A stretch of DNA of 64,000 bases, from NCBI GenBank assembly GCA_014872815.1, contig WKFK01000014.1:248001-312000 (forward strand). The letters run 5' to 3'. Below are positions 1,054 to 64,000 of the stretch, piece after piece (the first letter of the stretch is position 1; every line of letters starts with the position of its first letter). The DNA is from Paracoccaceae bacterium. Its GTDB lineage: Bacteria > Pseudomonadota > Alphaproteobacteria > Rhodobacterales > Rhodobacteraceae. The position numbers and the translations under genes were made by a program. The notes under the pieces are model-generated. The model saw nothing but the letters and a program-made list of their open reading frames with translations, searched no databases and was not told where the DNA came from.

Positions 1054-2958
1054 TTATGAGGCGGAGGATAGGTGATTTTCCGCCTGTGCGGGCTGCGCGC
1101 AGGCGATGGGCGTGGCAGGCGCGCTGCGCAGGTTCACGGCGCGTGTGAGGTCCAGCGCGGCCAGGCCGAGCTGTGCCGAGCCGGGGGCTGCCATGAAGAG
1201 CGGCTCCCAGCGGGGGGCAAAGCAGGCTTTGAACTGGCGCAGGCCTGCACCGCCCGCGTGTTTGAAGTGGTAGCCGCGGATCTTGCGCTCCAGCGCGGTT
1301 TTGCCTTCGGGCAGAGCTGGCGCAGCGGCCAGTGACAGGCGCGGCACGTCAGCCTCCGCCGCGGCCTCGATGGCCTTTTGGACCAGTAAGTGCATGGTGC
1401 CGTCAGGCGCGTTGGGCAACACGCGCATGAGGTCGAGGCACCATTCATGTGTGGTGGCGTGGAAGCTGACAAAGCCGACGAGCTTATCGCCTTGAAAGGC
1501 AAGGAAGACGGTTTGGCAGCCGACATAGAAGTTGTCAAAGCGGCCCATGGTCAGACCTTTGGGAATGCCGTGTTTGGCTTCCCACGCAGCAGAGACTTGC
1601 GCCATGTCGCCCAGCGGCAGCATATGGGCCGCGGGCTGGCTTAGGATCACGTCGGCCTTTTCGGCTTGGCGCAATTTGCGGCGCAGTTGGCGATAGGTCG
1701 ATCCGGCTGTGGAATGCTGGCTTGGTGTGAGAACAGCCTCGTCGGAGATATGTACCACGGCCCAACCTGCCTTGCGGGTTTTCACGGCTTGTCGAGCGGA
1801 GATTTTGTATTTGCAGGCGATCCGATTTTGGGCGCGTGCGGCGTTTTTGAGTGGCCGCGCCATAGCGTGTGCGTCGCCCTCGATCGGGTCAAACAAGGCT
1901 ACGAGGGTCTGGCCGATCCGCACCGCGCCGTAGCGGCCTGCGTCACAAGACAGGAGCGCGCCGCCGTTTTGACGGATCACACCAAGTTCGGCGCGGCTGA
2001 CCGTGGACATGGGCGCACTGTCATAGGCCTCATAGGCGCGGTGCTGGCGCGGGGCGCGGGCTGGACGCGGCTTGGCAAGATGGCGCAGGAACACCAGCCC
2101 GGCTAGGAGCGCGGGCAGCGCGTAGTAGATGGCGCGGAAGGCCAGAACGCCGGCGAGCAGGGAGGCTTCCGGGTGGTGCGGCAGCATTGCCAGGAGCGTC
2201 AGTTCAAACGGGCCAACACCGCCGGGAGTGCCGGAAAAGATGGCGGCGCCTAGCGCGATTAGGAAGACCGGGAGCAGGACAGCGAAGCTGAGAGGCAGGT
2301 CTGGTGGCAGCAGGACGTAGAGCGCCAGCGCAGCAAAGATGGTGTCGATCAGGCAGAGGGACAGCAGAGCCGCCATTGCGGGCAGGGTTGGCAGGCTGAG
2401 GCGGCTGCCTTGACGCGGCAGGACAGGGAAAACAAAAGCCAGCACGACAACAAGGAATGCGACAGCCAGAATGACCGGCGGCAAGAAAGACGGCACGTGT
2501 GGGGTGGGCAGGATCAGTGCGGCAAGGGCAATGGTCACAGCCATGGCGGCCAAGAAGGTCACGGTGACAAAAGCAGTGATGCGCGCGGCGTCTTTGAGCG
2601 AGAGACCCGGCATCATGCGCCAGCGCACGAAGGTGCCAACGACTGCGCCTGCGCCTAAGGTTTGGCCCAGGCCAATGGCGGTGGCCCCAACAGTCATGGC
2701 CTCAGACGTGCTGCGATGCATCTGAAAATGACGTTGGGCAATCACATCATACCGCGAGACCGCCATAAAACTGATGGCGGAAAACGTGAGGGCCAGCCCC
2801 CATTGCCACGGCGTGGCAGAGAGCACGGACGCCCAAAGCGCGCCGTAGTCCACATCGTCCACTTGTTCGGAAAGCAGCCAGAGGCACACGGCGCCAAAGG
2901 CAAAAGGCCAAATCCGTCGCAGAAAGGTCTGCGCAGTCTTCATCATTGGTGTCTTCAA
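1054..2958 (-). CDS. MprF-like bifunctional membrane protein (flippase-like TM domain plus DUF2156/GNAT-like aminoacyltransferase domain)
   Basis: 634 aa; multi-TM N-terminal half (GTPGGVGPFELTLLAMLPHH) and soluble C-terminal half (DLMRVLPNAPDGTMHLLVQKAIEAAAEADVPRLSLAAAP, typical DUF2156). Confidence 0.8.
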   Translation of the reverse strand: MKTPMMKTAQTFLRRIWPFAFGAVCLWLLSEQVDDVDYGALWASVLSATPWQWGLALTFSAISFMAVSRYDVIAQRHFQMHRSTSEAMTVGATAIGLGQTLGAGAVVGTFVRWRMMPGLSLKDAARITAFVTVTFLAAMAVTIALAALILPTPHVPSFLPPVILAVAFLVVVLAFVFPVLPRQGSRLSLPTLPAMAALLSLCLIDTIFAALALYVLLPPDLPLSFAVLLPVFLIALGAAIFSGTPGGVGPFELTLLAMLPHHPEASLLAGVLAFRAIYYALPALLAGLVFLRHLAKPRPARAPRQHRAYEAYDSAPMSTVSRAELGVIRQNGGALLSCDAGRYGAVRIGQTLVALFDPIEGDAHAMARPLKNAARAQNRIACKYKISARQAVKTRKAGWAVVHISDEAVLTPSQHSTAGSTYRQLRRKLRQAEKADVILSQPAAHMLPLGDMAQVSAAWEAKHGIPKGLTMGRFDNFYVGCQTVFLAFQGDKLVGFVSFHATTHEWCLDLMRVLPNAPDGTMHLLVQKAIEAAAEADVPRLSLAAAPALPEGKTALERKIRGYHFKHAGGAGLRQFKACFAPRWEPLFMAAPGSAQLGLAALDLTRAVNLRSAPATPIACAQPAQAENHLSSAS

Positions 2959-3052
2959 GGTTCCCGCCCCAAAAATTTACCTGTCCCACGTGATCCAAAT
3001 CGCTATCTGACGTGTGGTTTCGGCCGCCTTAACAAAGACAATTGGAGCTAAA

Positions 3053-3095
3053 TAAAGCGCGCGGACTGAAAGCCCACGCGCCGTAAATTGTTTTT
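3053..3095 (-). terminator. Putative terminator downstream of the zeta-subunit gene
   Basis: Minus-strand GGCGCGTGGGC-TTTC-AGTCCGCGCGC followed by TTTATTT. Confidence 0.5.
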
Positions 3096-3106
3096 ATTGG
3101 GTGGCC

Positions 3107-3421
3107 TTAAGCCTCGGTTGCCATTTCTTCTTTGGCTTCCGCAAGGGCTTCGCGACGTTTTGCGCGGATGGTTTGCTCATCTGCCTTGTCCCCCAAATCG
3201 CCCACTACCTTGCGAATGACATCATCATGACCGGCTTCTTCAAAATCTGCGGCGATGACGGTTTTGGCGTAGGCTTCAGCGTCGGCGCCGGATTTACCAA
3301 GCAACTCTGCGGCCCAAAGACCCAGTTTCTTGTTGGCGCGGGCTTCGGCCTTGAATTTCATCTCTTCGTCATGGGCGAATTTGGCCTCAAAGGCGGCTTC
3401 GCGGTCGTCAAATGTGCTCAT
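3107..3421 (-). CDS. DUF1476 protein, alphaproteobacterial F1-ATPase inhibitory zeta subunit
   Basis: 104 aa MSTFDDREAAFEAKFAHDEEMKFKAEARANKKLGLWAAELLG; matches the DUF1476/zeta family as recognised. Confidence 0.85.
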   Translation of the reverse strand: MSTFDDREAAFEAKFAHDEEMKFKAEARANKKLGLWAAELLGKSGADAEAYAKTVIAADFEEAGHDDVIRKVVGDLGDKADEQTIRAKRREALAEAKEEMATEA

Positions 3422-3577
3422 AATTGAACTCCTCCATAATTCGTGGATGTCTTAATACCCATATGACCATTCAACGCGAATGCTGCAAGTGCAAGCGCCA
3501 CGCTTGCGACAATGTCATCCATCCATTATGAGGGCGATCAAATTCGGGACTCATCCCGGAAGAGAAGGAATGTAGCC

Positions 3578-4333
3578 ATGGCCCGCGGCAAAAAAATCTA
3601 TGAAGGCAAAGCCAAGATTCTGTTTGAGGGCCCTGAGCCGGGCACCATTGTGCAATACTTCAAAGACGACGCCACCGCGTTCAACGCGGAAAAGAAAGAC
3701 GTCATCGACGGCAAAGGTGTGTTGAACAATCGCCTGAGCGAATATTTCATGACCGGTCTTGGTCAGATTGGTGTGCCGACCCATTTCCTGAAGCGTATGA
3801 ACATGCGTGAGCAGTTGGTGCGCAACTGTGAGATCATCCCGTTGGAAGTGATCGTGCGTAACTATGCCGCCGGATCCATGAGCAAACGTTTGGGCATCGA
3901 AGAGGGCACGCAGTTGCCGCGTCCGATTGTAGAGTACTGCTACAAGGACGACAGCCTGGGTGATCCACTGGTGTCCGAAGAGCATATCGCCGCCTTTGGC
4001 TGGGCCAGCCAACAGGACATGGACGATATCCTCGGTCTGGCGTTGCGCGTGAATGACTGGCTGAGCGGTGTGATGTTTGGTGTGGGCATTCGCCTGATCG
4101 ACTTCAAAATCGAGATTGGCCGTGTTTATGAGGGTGATTTCCAGCGTTTGGTTGTGGCCGACGAGATTAGCCCGGACAGCTGTCGTCTGTGGGACATCGA
4201 GAGCGGGCAGAAGCTCGACAAAGATGTGTTCCGCCGCGACCTTGGCAATCTGACCGATGCTTATGCCGAAGTGGCGCGCCGCCTGGGCGTGCTACCGAAG
4301 GGCACCGGCCCCAAGCCGACGCTTGTAAACTGA
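3578..4333 (+). CDS. purC: Phosphoribosylaminoimidazole-succinocarboxamide synthase
   Basis: [36 protein letters not shown]...; start at 3578 preferred over 3512 (SD-like agaaggaa). Confidence 0.95.
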
Positions 4334-5373: not shown

Positions 5374-7137
5374 ATGACGCAAAACGCCTCCGACACCACT
5401 GAAAAACTGCGCCCGGCGACAACAAGCTGGCGGGCGCGTGTGACCTTGGCGTTGTTGGTCGTGGTCGCGGGGGTGACGATCTGGGTCACCAACAGTTTTC
5501 TGACAGATCGGTTTACGGCCAATACGCGCAATCGGGCAGAGCTTCGATTGGCGCTCTATTCTGGCAACCTGCTGAGTGAGTTGCGGCGAAGCGCCATTGT
5601 TCCGCAGCTGCTGGCCAAAGACCCCGCATTGATTGGGGCGTTGAACTCTCAGGATTTCTCCAGCTCGACAGCGCGGTTGATCAGCTTTGTGGATGAAATC
5701 GGTGCGGCGTCTTTGTTGATGCTGGATGAGACCGGACGCACGGTGGCGGCGACGGATCGCACGCGGCTTGGTACGATGTATCGGGAACAAGAGTTTTTTA
5801 TCAACGCGTTACGGTCCAATGTTACACTGTTTACAACGGCGAGAGACGAGACCGGTGCCTATCGGTTCATTTACTCTCGGCGATTGGAAAGCGGTGGGGC
5901 CACGCTTGGCGTGATCGCGGTTGAGGTGGACCTGCACAAGTTTGAGCGCGCCTGGGCTGGCATTTCGGATGCGGTTTTGGTGACAAACAGTGAGGGCACC
6001 ATCATCCTCAGCAGCGAGCCACGGTGGCGCGGCTTGACGGAAGAAGAGGCCCTCTCCCGACAGCCAGCATTGGGGGCCATCGAGCGCGCGATCAAAGTGA
6101 CGGCGGACTGGGCGCAAGACCCTGCGGATGCGTATTTGCGCGGCGAAGCCGTGATGCGCATGGGCGCGCGTATCCCGTTCCGGGGCTGGCAGATGACCAG
6201 TTTCACCAGCTATGCGGGCGTGCGGGAAAAGGTGAACGCGGTTCTGGCGTTGGAGATTATGGGATTTGCGATCCTGTTGGCGTTGGGTTTTTACGTGTTG
6301 GGGCGCAAAAGCGCGCTACGGATGGCGTTGTTTCAGCGCGAGAGTGTTGAGTTGCGTGGGTTGAACCAGCGGCTTCAGCGTGAAATTGCAGAGCGCGAGC
6401 GGATGCAGCAGAGTCTTGAAGTGGCGGAGCAAAGTCTGGCGCAGAGCTCCAAACTGGCGGCGCTTGGAGAGATGTCGGCGGCGGTGAGCCATGAGTTGAA
6501 CCAGCCTTTGGCGGCGATGAAGACCTATCTTGCTGGTGCACAGCTTTTAGTGAAGCGCAATCGGCCGGAAGAGGCGCTGACCTCGTTTCAGCGGATTGAC
6601 GACCTGATTGAGCGCATGGGCGCGATCACCAAGCAGCTCAAATCCTATGCTCGAAAAGGCGGGGATGAGTTCCATGTGGTTGATATGGGGGAGGCTGTGG
6701 CCTCGGCTTTGTCGATGATGGAGCCGCAATTGCGCCAGCGACAGGTGCGCATAAGCAAGATTGTGCCGACGGACCCGGTGCGCGTGATGGGGGATCGGGT
6801 GCGGATTGAGCAGGTGATGATCAACCTGTTGCGCAACGCGCTGGATGCGACGGAGTCCGTGGCCGATCCGGAGATCGAAATCCTTTTGGCAGCAGGGGAA
6901 ACCGCCACTTTGACAGTGCGCGACAACGGACCTGGCATCGAGGATTTGAACAACCTTTTTGAGCCGTTTTTCACCACCAAACAGCCGGGTGAGGGCGTTG
7001 GTTTGGGGTTGGCAATCAGCTCTGGCATCGTCAGCGACCTCGGCGGACGGCTGACAGCGCGGAATGGAGACGGGCAGGGGGCTGTATTTGAAGTTCAACT
7101 GCCTATCTTGAACGAAGATATTGAAGCAGCGGAGTAA
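5374..7137 (+). CDS. DctB-like membrane sensor histidine kinase
   Basis: 587 aa; TM plus periplasmic sensor region, H-box AALGEMSAAVSHELNQPLAAMKTYL, HATPase motifs RNALDAT, DNGPGI, GEGVGLGLAIS; DctB-like arrangement next to a DctD-like regulator. Confidence 0.85.
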   Translation: MTQNASDTTEKLRPATTSWRARVTLALLVVVAGVTIWVTNSFLTDRFTANTRNRAELRLALYSGNLLSELRRSAIVPQLLAKDPALIGALNSQDFSSSTARLISFVDEIGAASLLMLDETGRTVAATDRTRLGTMYREQEFFINALRSNVTLFTTARDETGAYRFIYSRRLESGGATLGVIAVEVDLHKFERAWAGISDAVLVTNSEGTIILSSEPRWRGLTEEEALSRQPALGAIERAIKVTADWAQDPADAYLRGEAVMRMGARIPFRGWQMTSFTSYAGVREKVNAVLALEIMGFAILLALGFYVLGRKSALRMALFQRESVELRGLNQRLQREIAERERMQQSLEVAEQSLAQSSKLAALGEMSAAVSHELNQPLAAMKTYLAGAQLLVKRNRPEEALTSFQRIDDLIERMGAITKQLKSYARKGGDEFHVVDMGEAVASALSMMEPQLRQRQVRISKIVPTDPVRVMGDRVRIEQVMINLLRNALDATESVADPEIEILLAAGETATLTVRDNGPGIEDLNNLFEPFFTTKQPGEGVGLGLAISSGIVSDLGGRLTARNGDGQGAVFEVQLPILNEDIEAAE

Positions 7138-7141
7138 ATTC

Positions 7142-8476
7142 GTGGCACAAAGCATGAAGATCGCGATCGTCGACGACGAGCAGGACATGCGGCAGTCGAT
7201 CAGCCAATGGCTGGCACTGTCGGGCTATGACACAGAAACCTTTCCCAGCGCCGAGGATGCGTTGAAGGCGCTTGGCGCGGAGTATCCGGGGATCGTGATT
7301 TCCGACATCAAGATGCCAGGCATGGACGGGATGCAGTTTCTGAAGAAGCTGATGGGCGCGGACAGTTCATTGCCCGTGATCATGATCACGGGGCACGGTG
7401 ACGTACCGATGGCCGTAGAAGCGATGCGCGTCGGTGCGTTTGATTTCCTGGAGAAGCCGTTTAACCCGGATCGTATGACGCAATTGGCGAAGAAGGCCAC
7501 CAATGCGCGACGCTTGACGCTGGATGCGCGAGCGCTGCGGCGTGAGCTGTCTGATGGCGATCAGATTATGAATAAACTGATCGGTGCGAGCCCGGTGATG
7601 GCGCGTCTCAGGGAAGACATTCTCGATCTGGGACAAGCTGACGGGCATGTGCTTATCGATGGTGAGACCGGTACGGGCAAGACCTTGGTGGCGCATGCAC
7701 TGCATGCGGTTGGCAGCCGGGCGGGCAAGAAGTTCGTGCTGGTGAGCTGTGGCGCTTTTGAAGAAGAGGCGCTTGCCAAACGCCTGTTCGGACCAATGAA
7801 CCCGGAAGACAGTCAGTTGCCAGCGGTGGAAGAAGCGCGTGGCGGGACGTTGGTGCTGGAAGACATCGAGAGCCTGAGCGACGCGCTGCAGGCCAAGTTG
7901 CTCAATGTGATCAATGAGCAGGGCACACCAGCGGAAACGCGGATTGTGGCGATTTCCAACATGCAGGAGCAGGATCGCACCTGTGAAGATGCGCTGCGTT
8001 CCGATCTGTTTTATCGCTTGGCCGCGCTGCGGATTACTGTGCCGCCTTTGCGGCAGCGTGGCGAAGACATTCTGAGCCTTTTTACGCGTCTGTCAGAGCA
8101 ATTTAGCGAGGAATATGGTTGTGATGCGCCGAAGGTAAGCGCGCAGGAAGCGGCGCAATTGTTGCAGGCCCCGTGGCCCGGAAACGTGCGCCAGTTGATC
8201 AATTTGGCGGAACGAGCTGTGCTGCAGAGCCGTCGTGGTGAAGGCACCATTGCCTCGCTGTTGATGAGCGATCACGAAGAGATGCAGCCGGTTGTGACCA
8301 CAGAAGGCAAGCCGCTCAAAGAGTACGTGGAGGCTTTTGAGCGTATGCTGATCGACAACACGATGCGCCGCCATCGCGGGTCCATTGCTGGCGTGATGGA
8401 AGAGCTGTGCCTGCCTCGCCGGACGCTGAACGAAAAGATGGCGAAATACGGACTTCAGAGGGCTGATTACCTCTGA
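7142..8476 (+). CDS. DctD-like response regulator with REC, AAA+ and Fis-type HTH domains; GAFTGA motif absent
   Basis: REC MKIAIVDDEQDMRQS...ISDIKMPGMDG; Walker A GETGTGKT; C-terminal GSIAGVMEELCLPRRTLNEKMAKYGL. Start probably GTG at 7142. Confidence 0.85.
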   Translation: MAQSMKIAIVDDEQDMRQSISQWLALSGYDTETFPSAEDALKALGAEYPGIVISDIKMPGMDGMQFLKKLMGADSSLPVIMITGHGDVPMAVEAMRVGAFDFLEKPFNPDRMTQLAKKATNARRLTLDARALRRELSDGDQIMNKLIGASPVMARLREDILDLGQADGHVLIDGETGTGKTLVAHALHAVGSRAGKKFVLVSCGAFEEEALAKRLFGPMNPEDSQLPAVEEARGGTLVLEDIESLSDALQAKLLNVINEQGTPAETRIVAISNMQEQDRTCEDALRSDLFYRLAALRITVPPLRQRGEDILSLFTRLSEQFSEEYGCDAPKVSAQEAAQLLQAPWPGNVRQLINLAERAVLQSRRGEGTIASLLMSDHEEMQPVVTTEGKPLKEYVEAFERMLIDNTMRRHRGSIAGVMEELCLPRRTLNEKMAKYGLQRADYL

Positions 8477-8498
8477 TTTCAGGCCGATAGATTATGTG

Positions 8499-60536: not shown

Positions 60537-60812
60537 TCACAAAGTGTAAGCTCTGACCACTGCGGCTATCAGCGAGAGCATAAGGCCAAGGCGACCAAGA
60601 AGGCCTAGCGCTGCGCAGAAGCGCGCCCCTATCGAAGCATTGCACACCTCTGCTGCCACCGATTCACCGGTAATAAGAATGTCAAATGCGCTTCGAATGG
60701 ACTGCTCTCTTCCTGTAGCGCGCCACAGGCAAAAGATTCCGATCACTTCAAGGAAGATCGACGCCAAAAAGCTGACAAAGATCCATGTGCCTAAGGTCCA
60801 GTTTACGATCAT
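60537..60812 (-). CDS. Hypothetical small membrane protein
   Basis: MIVNWTLGTWIFVSFLASIFLEVIGIFCLWRATG... two TM segments; immediately downstream of the gntR gene. Confidence 0.55.
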   Translation of the reverse strand: MIVNWTLGTWIFVSFLASIFLEVIGIFCLWRATGREQSIRSAFDILITGESVAAEVCNASIGARFCAALGLLGRLGLMLSLIAAVVRAYTL

Positions 60813-60837
60813 TGTTTGTCCTGGGAGTCTGGCGACG

Positions 60838-61566
60838 TCATCGCCGCGCGCGGGCCTCCATGGCCTCTTCGCCCAGAGTGAGCGTGTATGCGGTGAGTTC
60901 CGCAAGGGCGGCATCCGCATCCGAGCCGTTTTGCATTTCCAACGCGTCGGCGATGCGGGTGTGCAGACCGATGATCACATCGCGGTTGCGCTGGGTGAAG
61001 GTGATCATGTTCATCAGAGGCTGCATGGCTTCCACAGCGCCGGCGAGTTGGTAAGACAGCACAGGATTGCCGGCGCCATCCACCAGCGCGCGGTGGAAGG
61101 CCACGTCGCTGTCACAGAAGCGCTCGTCGGATAGGCCCGGCTGCGCCTGACGGTGGATTTCCGCGCGCATAGTGGCGAGATGGTCCGGCGTGCGGCGTTG
61201 GGCCGATAGAGGCGCGCAGGCGCGCTCCAGGGCAAAGCGGGCTTCGCAGGCCGTTTCAAAATCCACCGCGTTCATCGACAGCAAGAGCGTGCTGGTTGTG
61301 ATATGTTGGGCGTAGGCTTCGTCATAGGACAGGCGCCGTACAAAGGCCCCGCCGGTGGCACCACGTTGGGTGCGAATGAGGTTCTGCGCCGCCAGACGTT
61401 TGAGCGCCTCGCGCACGGTGGGGCGGGAGACGTCAAATTGATCGGCCAGCTCGGATTCCGAGGGCAGGCGTTCATCGACAATCATGTCTCCAGAGATGAT
61501 CGCATCGCGGATGGCTTTGGCGATTTGAGCGGAGAGGTCGGCTTTGTTCTTGGGGTCTATTTTCAA
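60838..61566 (-). CDS. GntR family regulator, FadR/FCD subfamily
   Basis: LSAQIAKAIRDAIISGDMIVDERLPSESELADQFDVSRPTVREALKRLAAQNLIRTQRGATGGAFV; FCD domain; TTG start. Confidence 0.9.
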   Translation of the reverse strand: MKIDPKNKADLSAQIAKAIRDAIISGDMIVDERLPSESELADQFDVSRPTVREALKRLAAQNLIRTQRGATGGAFVRRLSYDEAYAQHITTSTLLLSMNAVDFETACEARFALERACAPLSAQRRTPDHLATMRAEIHRQAQPGLSDERFCDSDVAFHRALVDGAGNPVLSYQLAGAVEAMQPLMNMITFTQRNRDVIIGLHTRIADALEMQNGSDADAALAELTAYTLTLGEEAMEARARR

Positions 61567-61615
61567 TTGTCTGACATTTAGTGTTTGCTGCGCGTTTAAT
61601 TGTCTGACATTTTAG
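61565..61615. promoter_or_regulatory. Duplicated operator in the gntR/DUF2182 divergent region
   Basis: AATTGTCTGACATTT at 61565 and again at 61598; each contains the palindrome TGTC-t-GACA; 33 bp apart. Confidence 0.7.
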
Positions 61616-61655
61616 TCTCAAGAAGTGAGTCGCGGCAAGAGGAGGAATGTCGACG

Positions 61656-62417
61656 ATGATCGCAGATCGCATTCGTTCCATGACTGGCACCCATTGGCTT
61701 GCCTTGTTTGGCGGCATTCTGGCCGCGTGGGCCGTGCTGTTTCTGATGGCTATTCCGGCAGAGATGCGGGAGCTCAACGCGATTTATGGCGCGGACTTCT
61801 GGGTCAGCCTGTGCACGATCACACCGGATGCCAGCGGCTTTGCCCGGGTGTTGCTGATGTGGGTCGTGATGAGCGCCGCGATGATGGCGCCGACGGCTTT
61901 GCCAGCCTTTGCCACCTACGATGATCTGGCGCGCCAAGCGTCCGGCGCGAAGTTTTCCGCGCTGGTGGGCGGCTATCTGGCGGTGTGGATCGGGTTTTCC
62001 CTACTGGCCGCGGCGCTACAGATGGTGTTGTTTCAAGCGGGACTGCTGGGCGCGTTGGGCGAAAGCCGGTCGGCGTTTTTCTCTGCGTTCCTGTTGACGG
62101 TGGCGGGGCTGTATCAGTTCTCCCCCATGAAGGAGGCCTGCCTCTCTAAGTGCCGCATGCCGATGACGTTTTTCATGCAGCATTGGGACGAGGGGCCTTG
62201 GAAGAACGGGCTGCGCTTGGGGCTGACCTGTCTGGGATGCTGTTGGGCGTTGATGCTTTTGGCCTTTGTGGGCGGCGTGATGAACATCGGCTTCATGGGG
62301 CTGGCCACGCTGATCATGATTTTTGAGAAACTGCCCGACGTCGGGCGTTGGGTGACAAAGCCACTGGGGCTCGTGCTGTTGTGCAGTGCGGCCTATGTGG
62401 CGGCGCACGCCCTGTGA
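61656..62417 (+). CDS. DUF2182 predicted metal-binding integral membrane protein
   Basis: MGTHWLALFGGILAAWAVLFLM...VVMSAAMMAPTALPAFATYDDLAR...FSPMKEACLSKCRMPMTFFMQHWDEG...LGLTCLGCCWALM. Start may be 61647 or 61656 (SD AGGAGG at 61640). Confidence 0.85.
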   Translation: MIADRIRSMTGTHWLALFGGILAAWAVLFLMAIPAEMRELNAIYGADFWVSLCTITPDASGFARVLLMWVVMSAAMMAPTALPAFATYDDLARQASGAKFSALVGGYLAVWIGFSLLAAALQMVLFQAGLLGALGESRSAFFSAFLLTVAGLYQFSPMKEACLSKCRMPMTFFMQHWDEGPWKNGLRLGLTCLGCCWALMLLAFVGGVMNIGFMGLATLIMIFEKLPDVGRWVTKPLGLVLLCSAAYVAAHAL

Positions 62418-62440
62418 GGAATACTTAAGGAGGAGCAACC

Positions 62441-63133
62441 ATGGCATCGGACCGCATTCAAGCGCCCGCCAAGATCGACAACCGCCACCCGGACGCAATG
62501 AAATCCGGACTGGGCACCATTCCGTGGACCATCAAAGGGGAGTTGATCCTCAACTGTAACTGTACAGTGTTCTGCCCTTGCGTGGTGAGCCTTGGCCTGC
62601 ATCCGCCCACCGAGGGACACTGTCAGACCTGGGGCGGCGTGCGCATTGACGAGGGTCAGTACGGTGACGTGGACCTGTCTGGCCTGAACATCGGTCTGTT
62701 GATCGAGATTCCAGGCATGATGAGCCGTGGTAACTGGAAGGTGGCGCTGTTCATTGACGATCGCGCGAGCCCTGAGGCCTACAACGCGCTGGTCGATATC
62801 TTTAGCGGTAAAGCCAAAGGCACCACCGGCCTGTTCCAGATTTTGGTGGGCGAGATCATTGGGGTGGAACGTCAGCCGGTGTCTTATGACACGTCTGAGG
62901 ATGGCAAGACCCGTCACATCACCGTCGGCAAGAAAATCGAGGGTGTGGTCTATCCGGTGGAAGGCAAGAACAAAGACGAGGAGATTGTGATCTCCAACAC
63001 CAAATACTGGATGGGGCCAGACATCACAGTGGCGACAGCCTCCAAGGGCCGCGTGCGTGCCTTTGGTCGGGTTTGGGATTTTGGCGGGCGCTCTGCTGAG
63101 ATCTGCCAGATCGACTGGCACGGGCCTCGCTAG
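62441..63133 (+). CDS. DUF1326 domain protein
   Basis: TIKGELILNCNCTVFCPCVVSLGLHPPTEGHCQTWGGVRIDEGQYGDVDLSGL, Cys-rich CxCx4CPC motif. Confidence 0.88.
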   Translation: MASDRIQAPAKIDNRHPDAMKSGLGTIPWTIKGELILNCNCTVFCPCVVSLGLHPPTEGHCQTWGGVRIDEGQYGDVDLSGLNIGLLIEIPGMMSRGNWKVALFIDDRASPEAYNALVDIFSGKAKGTTGLFQILVGEIIGVERQPVSYDTSEDGKTRHITVGKKIEGVVYPVEGKNKDEEIVISNTKYWMGPDITVATASKGRVRAFGRVWDFGGRSAEICQIDWHGPR

Positions 63134-63138
63134 GACCG

Positions 63139-63660
63139 ATGTCGATGATCACGCCTGAATACTGCCAGATGATGGCCAAGTATAACGCCTGGCAAAACCG
63201 GAATATGCGTGCGGCGTGTGAAACCCTGACCGAGGCAGACTTGCGGGCCGATCGCGGTGCGTTTTTTGGCTCGGTCATGGCGACAATCAATCACATCCTC
63301 TGGGGTGATGCCCTGTGGATGAGCCGTTTGGACGGCGGGGATGGCCCGTCCAAGCCGGCGACTGAACATGCAGATTTGTGCCCAACCTTTGCGGTCTGGG
63401 CGCAGGAACGGACACGCATGGACCAGCGAATCGTGCAGTGGGCAGAAAGTGTTACCATCGAAAGTTTAAGTGGATATTTGAGCTGGCATGCCCAGATGCT
63501 GAACAAAGACATGCGCAAGCCAATGGCGCTGTGTGTGGTGCATCTGTTCAATCATCAGACCCACCACCGCGGCCAAGTACATGCCATGCTGACCGGCTTT
63601 GGTCGCAACACAGAAGACACGGATTTGGTTTTGATGCCTGAGGAGGTTTCATGGCTCTGA
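63139..63660 (+). CDS. DinB family protein
   Basis: YCQMMAKYNAWQNRNMRAACETLTEADLRADRGAFFGSVMATINHILWGDALWMSRLDG...HLFNHQTHHRGQVHAMLTGFG, three-His DinB pattern. Confidence 0.9.
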   Translation: MSMITPEYCQMMAKYNAWQNRNMRAACETLTEADLRADRGAFFGSVMATINHILWGDALWMSRLDGGDGPSKPATEHADLCPTFAVWAQERTRMDQRIVQWAESVTIESLSGYLSWHAQMLNKDMRKPMALCVVHLFNHQTHHRGQVHAMLTGFGRNTEDTDLVLMPEEVSWL

Positions 63661-64000
63661 TTTCTCCATCGCGGCGCCTGCGCCGTACGCCGTTTTCGGA
63701 CGGTGTCGAGGCGGCGGGTGTTAAGGCTTACACGGTCTACAACCGCATGTTGCTACCGACTGTGTTTCGCTCTGTGGAAGAGGACTACCGCCATCTCAAA
63801 ACCGCGGTGCAGGTTTGGGATGTGGCGGTGGAGCGTCAAGTTGAAGTGCGCGGTCCAGATGCCAGCAAGCTGATGCAGATGCTGACGCCGCGGGATCTGC
63901 GCGGTATGCTGCCGGGGCAGTGCTACTACGTGCCCATCGTGGATGAAACCGGCGGCATGTTGAACGATCCGGTGGCGGTGAAACTCGCCGAGGACCGGTG
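63651..64000 (+). CDS. dmdA: Dimethylsulfoniopropionate demethylase, truncated at window end
   Basis: Manual translation MALISPSRRLRRTPFSDGVEAAGVKAYTVYNRMLLPTVFRSVEEDYRHLKTAVQVWDVAVERQVEVRGPDASKLMQMLTPRDLRGMLPGQCYYVPIVDETGGMLNDPVAVKLAEDR; resembles remembered roseobacter DmdA N-termini. Not in the ORF track. Confidence 0.85.
   Translation, partial: MALISPSRRLRRTPFSDGVEAAGVKAYTVYNRMLLPTVFRSVEEDYRHLKTAVQVWDVAVERQVEVRGPDASKLMQMLTPRDLRGMLPGQCYYVPIVDETGGMLNDPVAVKLAEDR

Follow-up and report, generated by a model that had tools for sequence, protein, structure and literature searches.

Bacterial handling of DMSP determines how much marine sulfur is turned into DMS or methanethiol. The 3' end of the window, i.e., the whole 64,000-nucleotide stretch of Rhodobacteraceae DNA that was analysed, carries three little-studied genes, encoding a DUF2182 membrane protein, a DUF1326 soluble protein and a DinB-fold protein, immediately before dmdA, and the question raised by this locus is whether the trio serves demethylation itself or some other part of DMSP catabolism.

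Layout of the locus and identity of dmdA

The preliminary description had reported a tight run on the + strand, with a 23-nt gap, a 5-nt gap and a 10-nt overlap, and the open reading frames and their spacings were borne out by ORF and Pfam checks. The relevant features of the window are as follows:

60838-61566, - strand: gene for an FCD-type regulator of the GntR family, transcribed divergently from the operon (PF00392 and PF07729)
61567-61576, + strand: predicted operator site 1, TTGTCTGACA (motif overrepresented between GntR and DUF2182)
61600-61609, + strand: predicted operator site 2, a second copy of TTGTCTGACA spaced 33 nt from the first (motif enrichment in relatives)
61647-62417, + strand: DUF2182/PpoB2-family membrane protein, 256 aa (PF09948, 202 bits)
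62441-63133, + strand: DUF1326 soluble protein, 230 aa (PF07040, 174 bits)
63139-63660, + strand: DinB-fold protein, 173 aa (PF05163, 87 bits)
63651-64000, + strand: dmdA, first 350 nt in the window; the gene end would be at 64754 (NF009133)

The dmdA gene was completed from the window's own genome (L003:3652-4755, 367 aa), where acuI follows 88 nt after it, just outside the window (L003:4844-5836). A sigma-70 and terminator scan was uninformative, revealing no promoter before dmdA and no terminator signal above that of shuffled sequences. From the gaps and the operator position we infer a single transcript for the trio and dmdA-acuI. The nearest named relatives belong to Shimia, whose DUF1326 is 98% identical. 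A 127-aa ORF between a TenA-like gene and the GntR gene (60537-60920, - strand) matches no Pfam or NCBIfam family. The flank 3' of acuI, beyond the window, contains a TrgA-family (tellurite-resistance type) gene (L003:10292-10813) as well as a cysteine desulfurase-like gene, a photolyase and a CFA synthase, in an order common to many genera.

The identification of the last gene as dmdA, for which a GcvT-like protein had been named as the refuting case, was upheld on the full-length protein, for which NF009133, the DMSP demethylase equivalog, gave 690 bits (cut-off 410) as opposed to 112-154 bits, i.e., under the cut-offs, on GcvT models. Its closest solved structure (E 1e-111) is 3tfh, an entry named GcvT-like which we take to be Pelagibacter DmdA. 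By sequence, the gene is thus a genuine dmdA, with a predicted THF-dependent conversion of DMSP to MMPA.

Conservation of gene order in the Rhodobacteraceae

The neighborhood of dmdA was surveyed in one genome from each of 150 genera of the family, in which dmdA was counted above the cut-off, gene calls were approximate (ORF scoring and tblastn), and the DUF2182-DUF1326 pair was scored as upstream when both genes lay within 4 kb of dmdA on the same strand. The gene dmdA was found in 65 of the 150 genera, 48 of which carry the pair just upstream, as the apparent operon of the preliminary description would lead one to expect, while 17 lack an adjacent pair; DinB joins 28 of the 48 pair-dmdA loci. 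The DUF2182>DUF1326 order was observed at 72 loci, adjoined by dmdA in 48 cases and not in 24, whereas none of the 19 loci with the reverse order (DUF1326>DUF2182) lies beside dmdA.

Among 80 named loci, 24 have the arrangement pair-DinB-dmdA-acuI, 20 pair-dmdA-acuI, 11 pair-acuI and nine pair-DinB-acuI, in addition to rarer forms, which include the pair with dmdA yet without acuI (six named loci, of which some lie on cut contigs, and two more that have an acyl-CoA ligase). Many loci share flanks, i.e., fum-sspB-chrA upstream and aminotransferase-photolyase-CFA downstream. The fetched pair loci without dmdA mostly occupy this same chromosomal place, with acuI after the pair, and DinB-acuI without pair or dmdA occurs there too. 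On the tree of the pair, the presence of dmdA switches approximately 20 times while the pair stays, as estimated by a quick method with no inferred root, and it varies even inside Shimia (L139 against L137 and L138). These changes, together with the loci without dmdA, indicate that the block is modular, with dmdA, DinB and the pair as separate units. Any of the three can be absent independently, and the most constant components of the block are acuI and the GntR gene, the latter in those loci that have it.

The specific tie to demethylation and methanethiol production that had been proposed for the trio is not supported, since 24 of the 72 pairs lack an adjacent dmdA, most of those fetched standing before acuI, since DinB-acuI stands without pair or dmdA, and since the predicted operator (see below) precedes the block regardless of dmdA. 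One record (L202; JAHVJD010000001.1) bears the name of an actinobacterium, Nocardioides marinus DP1N28-1, but holds a typical Rhodobacteraceae locus with the full gene order and looks mislabelled or contaminated.

GntR-type regulator and predicted operator

A GntR gene is adjacent in 62 of the 79 named relatives scored. The pattern TTGTCNGACA, first seen in the window and afterwards checked in the relatives, occurs 75 times in 1.17 Mb (80 named loci), and 66 of these sites fall inside GntR-DUF2182 gaps. Such gaps total 13 kb, in which 0.8 sites were expected, a number that is only approximate because the relatives are not mutually independent and the motif was picked from the window; the size of the enrichment is nevertheless beyond doubt. 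The site is present in 54 of the 62 loci with a GntR gene as opposed to none of the 17 without, although contigs that were cut, or regulators that have diverged, may account for some of the latter. Within the GntR-bearing loci it was found in 41 of 47 with dmdA and in ten of 11 with acuI only, while a pattern search of the 160 nt preceding dmdA returned no site in 54 named loci. Where the pair is absent, the site lies before DinB or dmdA, whichever comes first.

What ties the members of the block together would appear to be the divergent GntR gene with its predicted operator, and the trio very probably belongs to a GntR-controlled DMSP/acrylate regulon. No useful literature was found on DmdR, or on dmdA in connection with GntR or copper. 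One locus (L253; G003:C1) displays a GntR-operator-DinB-acuI block without pair or dmdA (GntR 6031-6738, DinB 7991-8482), and a methanethiol oxidase-like SBP56 gene (2835-4259) is located approximately 1.8 kb beyond that block.

Association with DMSP genes and occurrence outside the family

Across genera, dmdA, DddP or the PF16867 lyase was found in 67 of the 71 genera with the DUF2182>DUF1326 pair versus 43 of the 79 others, in a test that treats genera as independent and thus retains effects of phylogeny and habitat. The reverse-order pair, which served as an internal control, exhibited no association with DMSP genes. In the window's own genome, no DddP, PF16867 lyase or SBP56 was found.

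The pair also accompanies dmdA on plasmids of Marinovum and Antarctobacter and at other places in several genera. Pairs found elsewhere on plasmids had neither a common neighbor nor a consistent copper-related one. Outside the family, the order DUF2182-DUF1326-dmdA-acyl-CoA ligase is present in another alphaproteobacterial family (L217, genome G341), and three genomes of yet another family (L218-L220) show the pair followed by an acyl-CoA ligase, with a DddP-like gene in the vicinity. In all four genomes, DUF1326 shares 65-73% identity with its counterparts in Rhodobacteraceae. The ligases and DddP-like genes are named tentatively, because the ligases score higher on a model for acyl-CoA synthetases in general than on that for MMPA-CoA ligase, and the DddP-like proteins score under the DddP cut-off.

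Conserved residues of the three accessory proteins

In alignments of DUF2182, M71-W72, M75, M79-M80, C169 and C195 are invariant and C165, C198 and C199 nearly so, and the motifs MW..M..AMM.P, C...C and C..CC are kept almost without exception in both gene-order subtypes. DUF1326 has an N-terminal CxC...CPC motif, with C39, C41, C45, C47 and C61 invariant and no evident signal peptide at its start. In 30 DinB sequences H52, H139, H142 and H143 are invariant, representing a three-His metal site, and H148 was also scored invariant; together with the Pfam score given above, this agrees with the three-His DinB-fold protein originally described, while the DinB of one locus (L079) has lost the His motif. 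The metal/thiol character previously attributed to the three proteins is likewise consistent with these Cys (DUF1326), Met and Cys (DUF2182) and His (DinB) residues.

DUF2182 had been said to have no assigned role, a statement that is outdated, as PF09948 is now named PpoB2, 'Copper chaperone', after the Marinomonas mediterranea protein that functions in copper transfer to tyrosinase (PMC2855505). The window's protein is by its sequence a PpoB2-family member with a putative role in copper movement, and its Met/Cys make-up would suit Cu(I). A literature search on DUF2182, DUF1326, COG5588, PF09948 and PF07040 returned nothing, while COG5486 led to one review, and a fold search with the predicted DUF2182 model matched no solved structure. 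The predicted DUF1326 model weakly resembles acetoacetate decarboxylase-type and phosphosteroid lyase folds (best E 1e-4), which may be a hint at the family fold; an acetoacetate decarboxylase-type assignment was set aside at a TM of only about 0.3-0.4. Copper/thiol chemistry of the trio is put forward as a tentative proposal, with slightly less than an even chance of being right.

Comparison with known systems

In Ruegeria pomeroyi, as in the present locus, dmdA directly precedes acuI, and the two respond to DMSP or acrylate with an induction of approximately 10-14 fold but do not respond to MMPA (PMC3338564), which also speaks against a demethylation-specific tie. Its promoter lies just upstream of dmdA, whereas here two to three genes come first. 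Judging from the 350-bp promoter fragment (PMC3338564), R. pomeroyi apparently has no trio genes between promoter and dmdA, so that the trio would be dispensable for DmdA.

The DMSP cluster of Marinovum algicola plasmid pMaD9 (CP010864) shares the divergent GntR gene, DUF2182, DUF1326, dmdA and acuI with the present locus, but it is plasmid-borne and lacks DinB, its dmdA is preceded by an acyl-CoA ligase, and SBP56 lies downstream; its annotation labels both pair genes '(transmembrane) protein involved in DMSP breakdown'. PpoB2 of M. mediterranea (COG5486/PF09948) belongs to the same Pfam family as the window's DUF2182. The M. mediterranea gene stands beside a tyrosinase gene, however, while the window operon has no partner copper oxidase or other cuproenzyme among DUF1326, DinB, dmdA and acuI, and its copper role is putative.

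Pairs annotated as the same two families in Streptomyces, Novosphingobium, Bradyrhizobium and others differ in having the reverse order in those read, approximately 30-33% DUF1326 identity and no nearby DMSP or acrylate genes. The reverse-order type within the Rhodobacteraceae (L117-L128), with approximately 25% identity, is likewise unrelated to DMSP genes; it shares the conserved Cys/Met residues with the DUF2182>DUF1326 type.

Possible functions of the accessory genes

The reading that we favor, at about an even chance, is that the trio is an accessory metal/thiol-handling module of a GntR-controlled, acrylate-inducible DMSP operon; such a role beside AcuI is favored because of the copper role of PpoB2, the conserved residues and the acrylate induction in R. 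pomeroyi. Operator, DUF2182, DUF1326, DinB, dmdA and acuI would constitute one GntR-controlled transcription unit, in which the Met/Cys-rich membrane protein DUF2182 and the Cys-rich soluble protein DUF1326 may be the two halves of a system that handles a metal, most likely Cu(I), and DinB may act as a metal-dependent thiol transferase or hydrolase. If the R. pomeroyi response to acrylate and DMSP is valid here, the trio would be made under acrylate stress, as acrylate/acryloyl-CoA and thiols accumulate, and would protect or service the cell alongside AcuI, not as catalytic partners of DmdA; acrylate induction, copper as the metal, and the thiol chemistry and substrates of DinB are what we infer in this scheme. 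What speaks against it is that plasmid-borne pairs elsewhere show no regular copper neighbor, that the DUF2182 model resembles no solved structure, and that R. pomeroyi apparently has no trio genes ahead of dmdA. An extended form, in which the pair is a Cu(I)/thiol-handling membrane-soluble unit recruited into acrylate-induced DMSP catabolism and DinB an acrylate/acryloyl-CoA thiol transferase, together representing a new protective DMSP branch in most sampled dmdA-bearing genera of the family, is considered unlikely.

A related and rather unlikely explanation holds that the trio detoxifies acrylate/acryloyl-CoA, with DinB adding a low-molecular-weight thiol and the Cys-rich pair buffering the thiols or metals that this electrophile displaces. 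It would fit the invariant His residues of DinB, the persistence of DinB beside acuI at loci that have neither pair nor dmdA, some of which carry the GntR site ahead of DinB, and the acrylate induction of an operon whose AcuI protects against acryloyl-CoA (PMC3338564), but the pair and DinB come and go independently of each other and the L079 DinB has lost the His motif. Copper loading by the pair into the Cu-dependent methanethiol oxidase MtoX (SBP56; PMC5739008), clearing methanethiol after demethylation, is suggested by the pMaD9 order GntR-DUF2182-DUF1326-acyl-CoA ligase-dmdA-acuI-SBP56, by SBP56 genes close by in L210, L193 and G043, and by the co-occurrence of pair and SBP56 over all genera. 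Nevertheless, mtoX usually has its own SCO1/mauG genes (PMC5739008), the pair-SBP56 link is not significant within dmdA genera (34/53 versus 5/12, p 0.20), and the window's genome, with no PF05694 match, lacks an SBP56 gene, which makes this role unlikely there; as a general role it was rejected on the latter two findings and is judged improbable.

Direct assistance to DmdA, e.g., protection, by metal or redox means, of the step that passes the methyl group to tetrahydrofolate, would account for the adjacency and overlap with dmdA and for the pair-dmdA loci that lack acuI. Pair and DinB persist without dmdA, however, and 17 dmdA genera have no adjacent pair; to our knowledge, DmdA has no metal requirement, which also counts against such assistance, and we regard it as highly improbable. 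That the linkage merely reflects an order of genes inherited at a single chromosomal site, and has no functional meaning, is suggested by the common flanks of many loci. This last explanation is disfavored by other families in which the pair stands beside dmdA or an acyl-CoA ligase and by an operator kept with the first gene, whichever gene that is; furthermore, plasmids and loci outside these flanks also carry pair and dmdA together, and the pair is retained through the repeated changes in dmdA presence, so that inherited order is the most improbable of the explanations considered.

Significance of the conserved block

The dmdA-acuI operon is already known, and the extra genes were apparently noticed by the Marinovum annotators; no open-access paper describing the pair or DinB in this operon was found. 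Three little-studied genes sit in a conserved, very probably jointly controlled block with enzymes for DMSP and toxic acrylate, and their role is thereby testable. For DUF1326, a widespread family of no known function, the block provides a physiological context that can be tested by gene deletion. If a metal/thiol module is part of most dmdA operons in the family, studies confined to dmdA-acuI, like those in R. pomeroyi, would miss part of the system.
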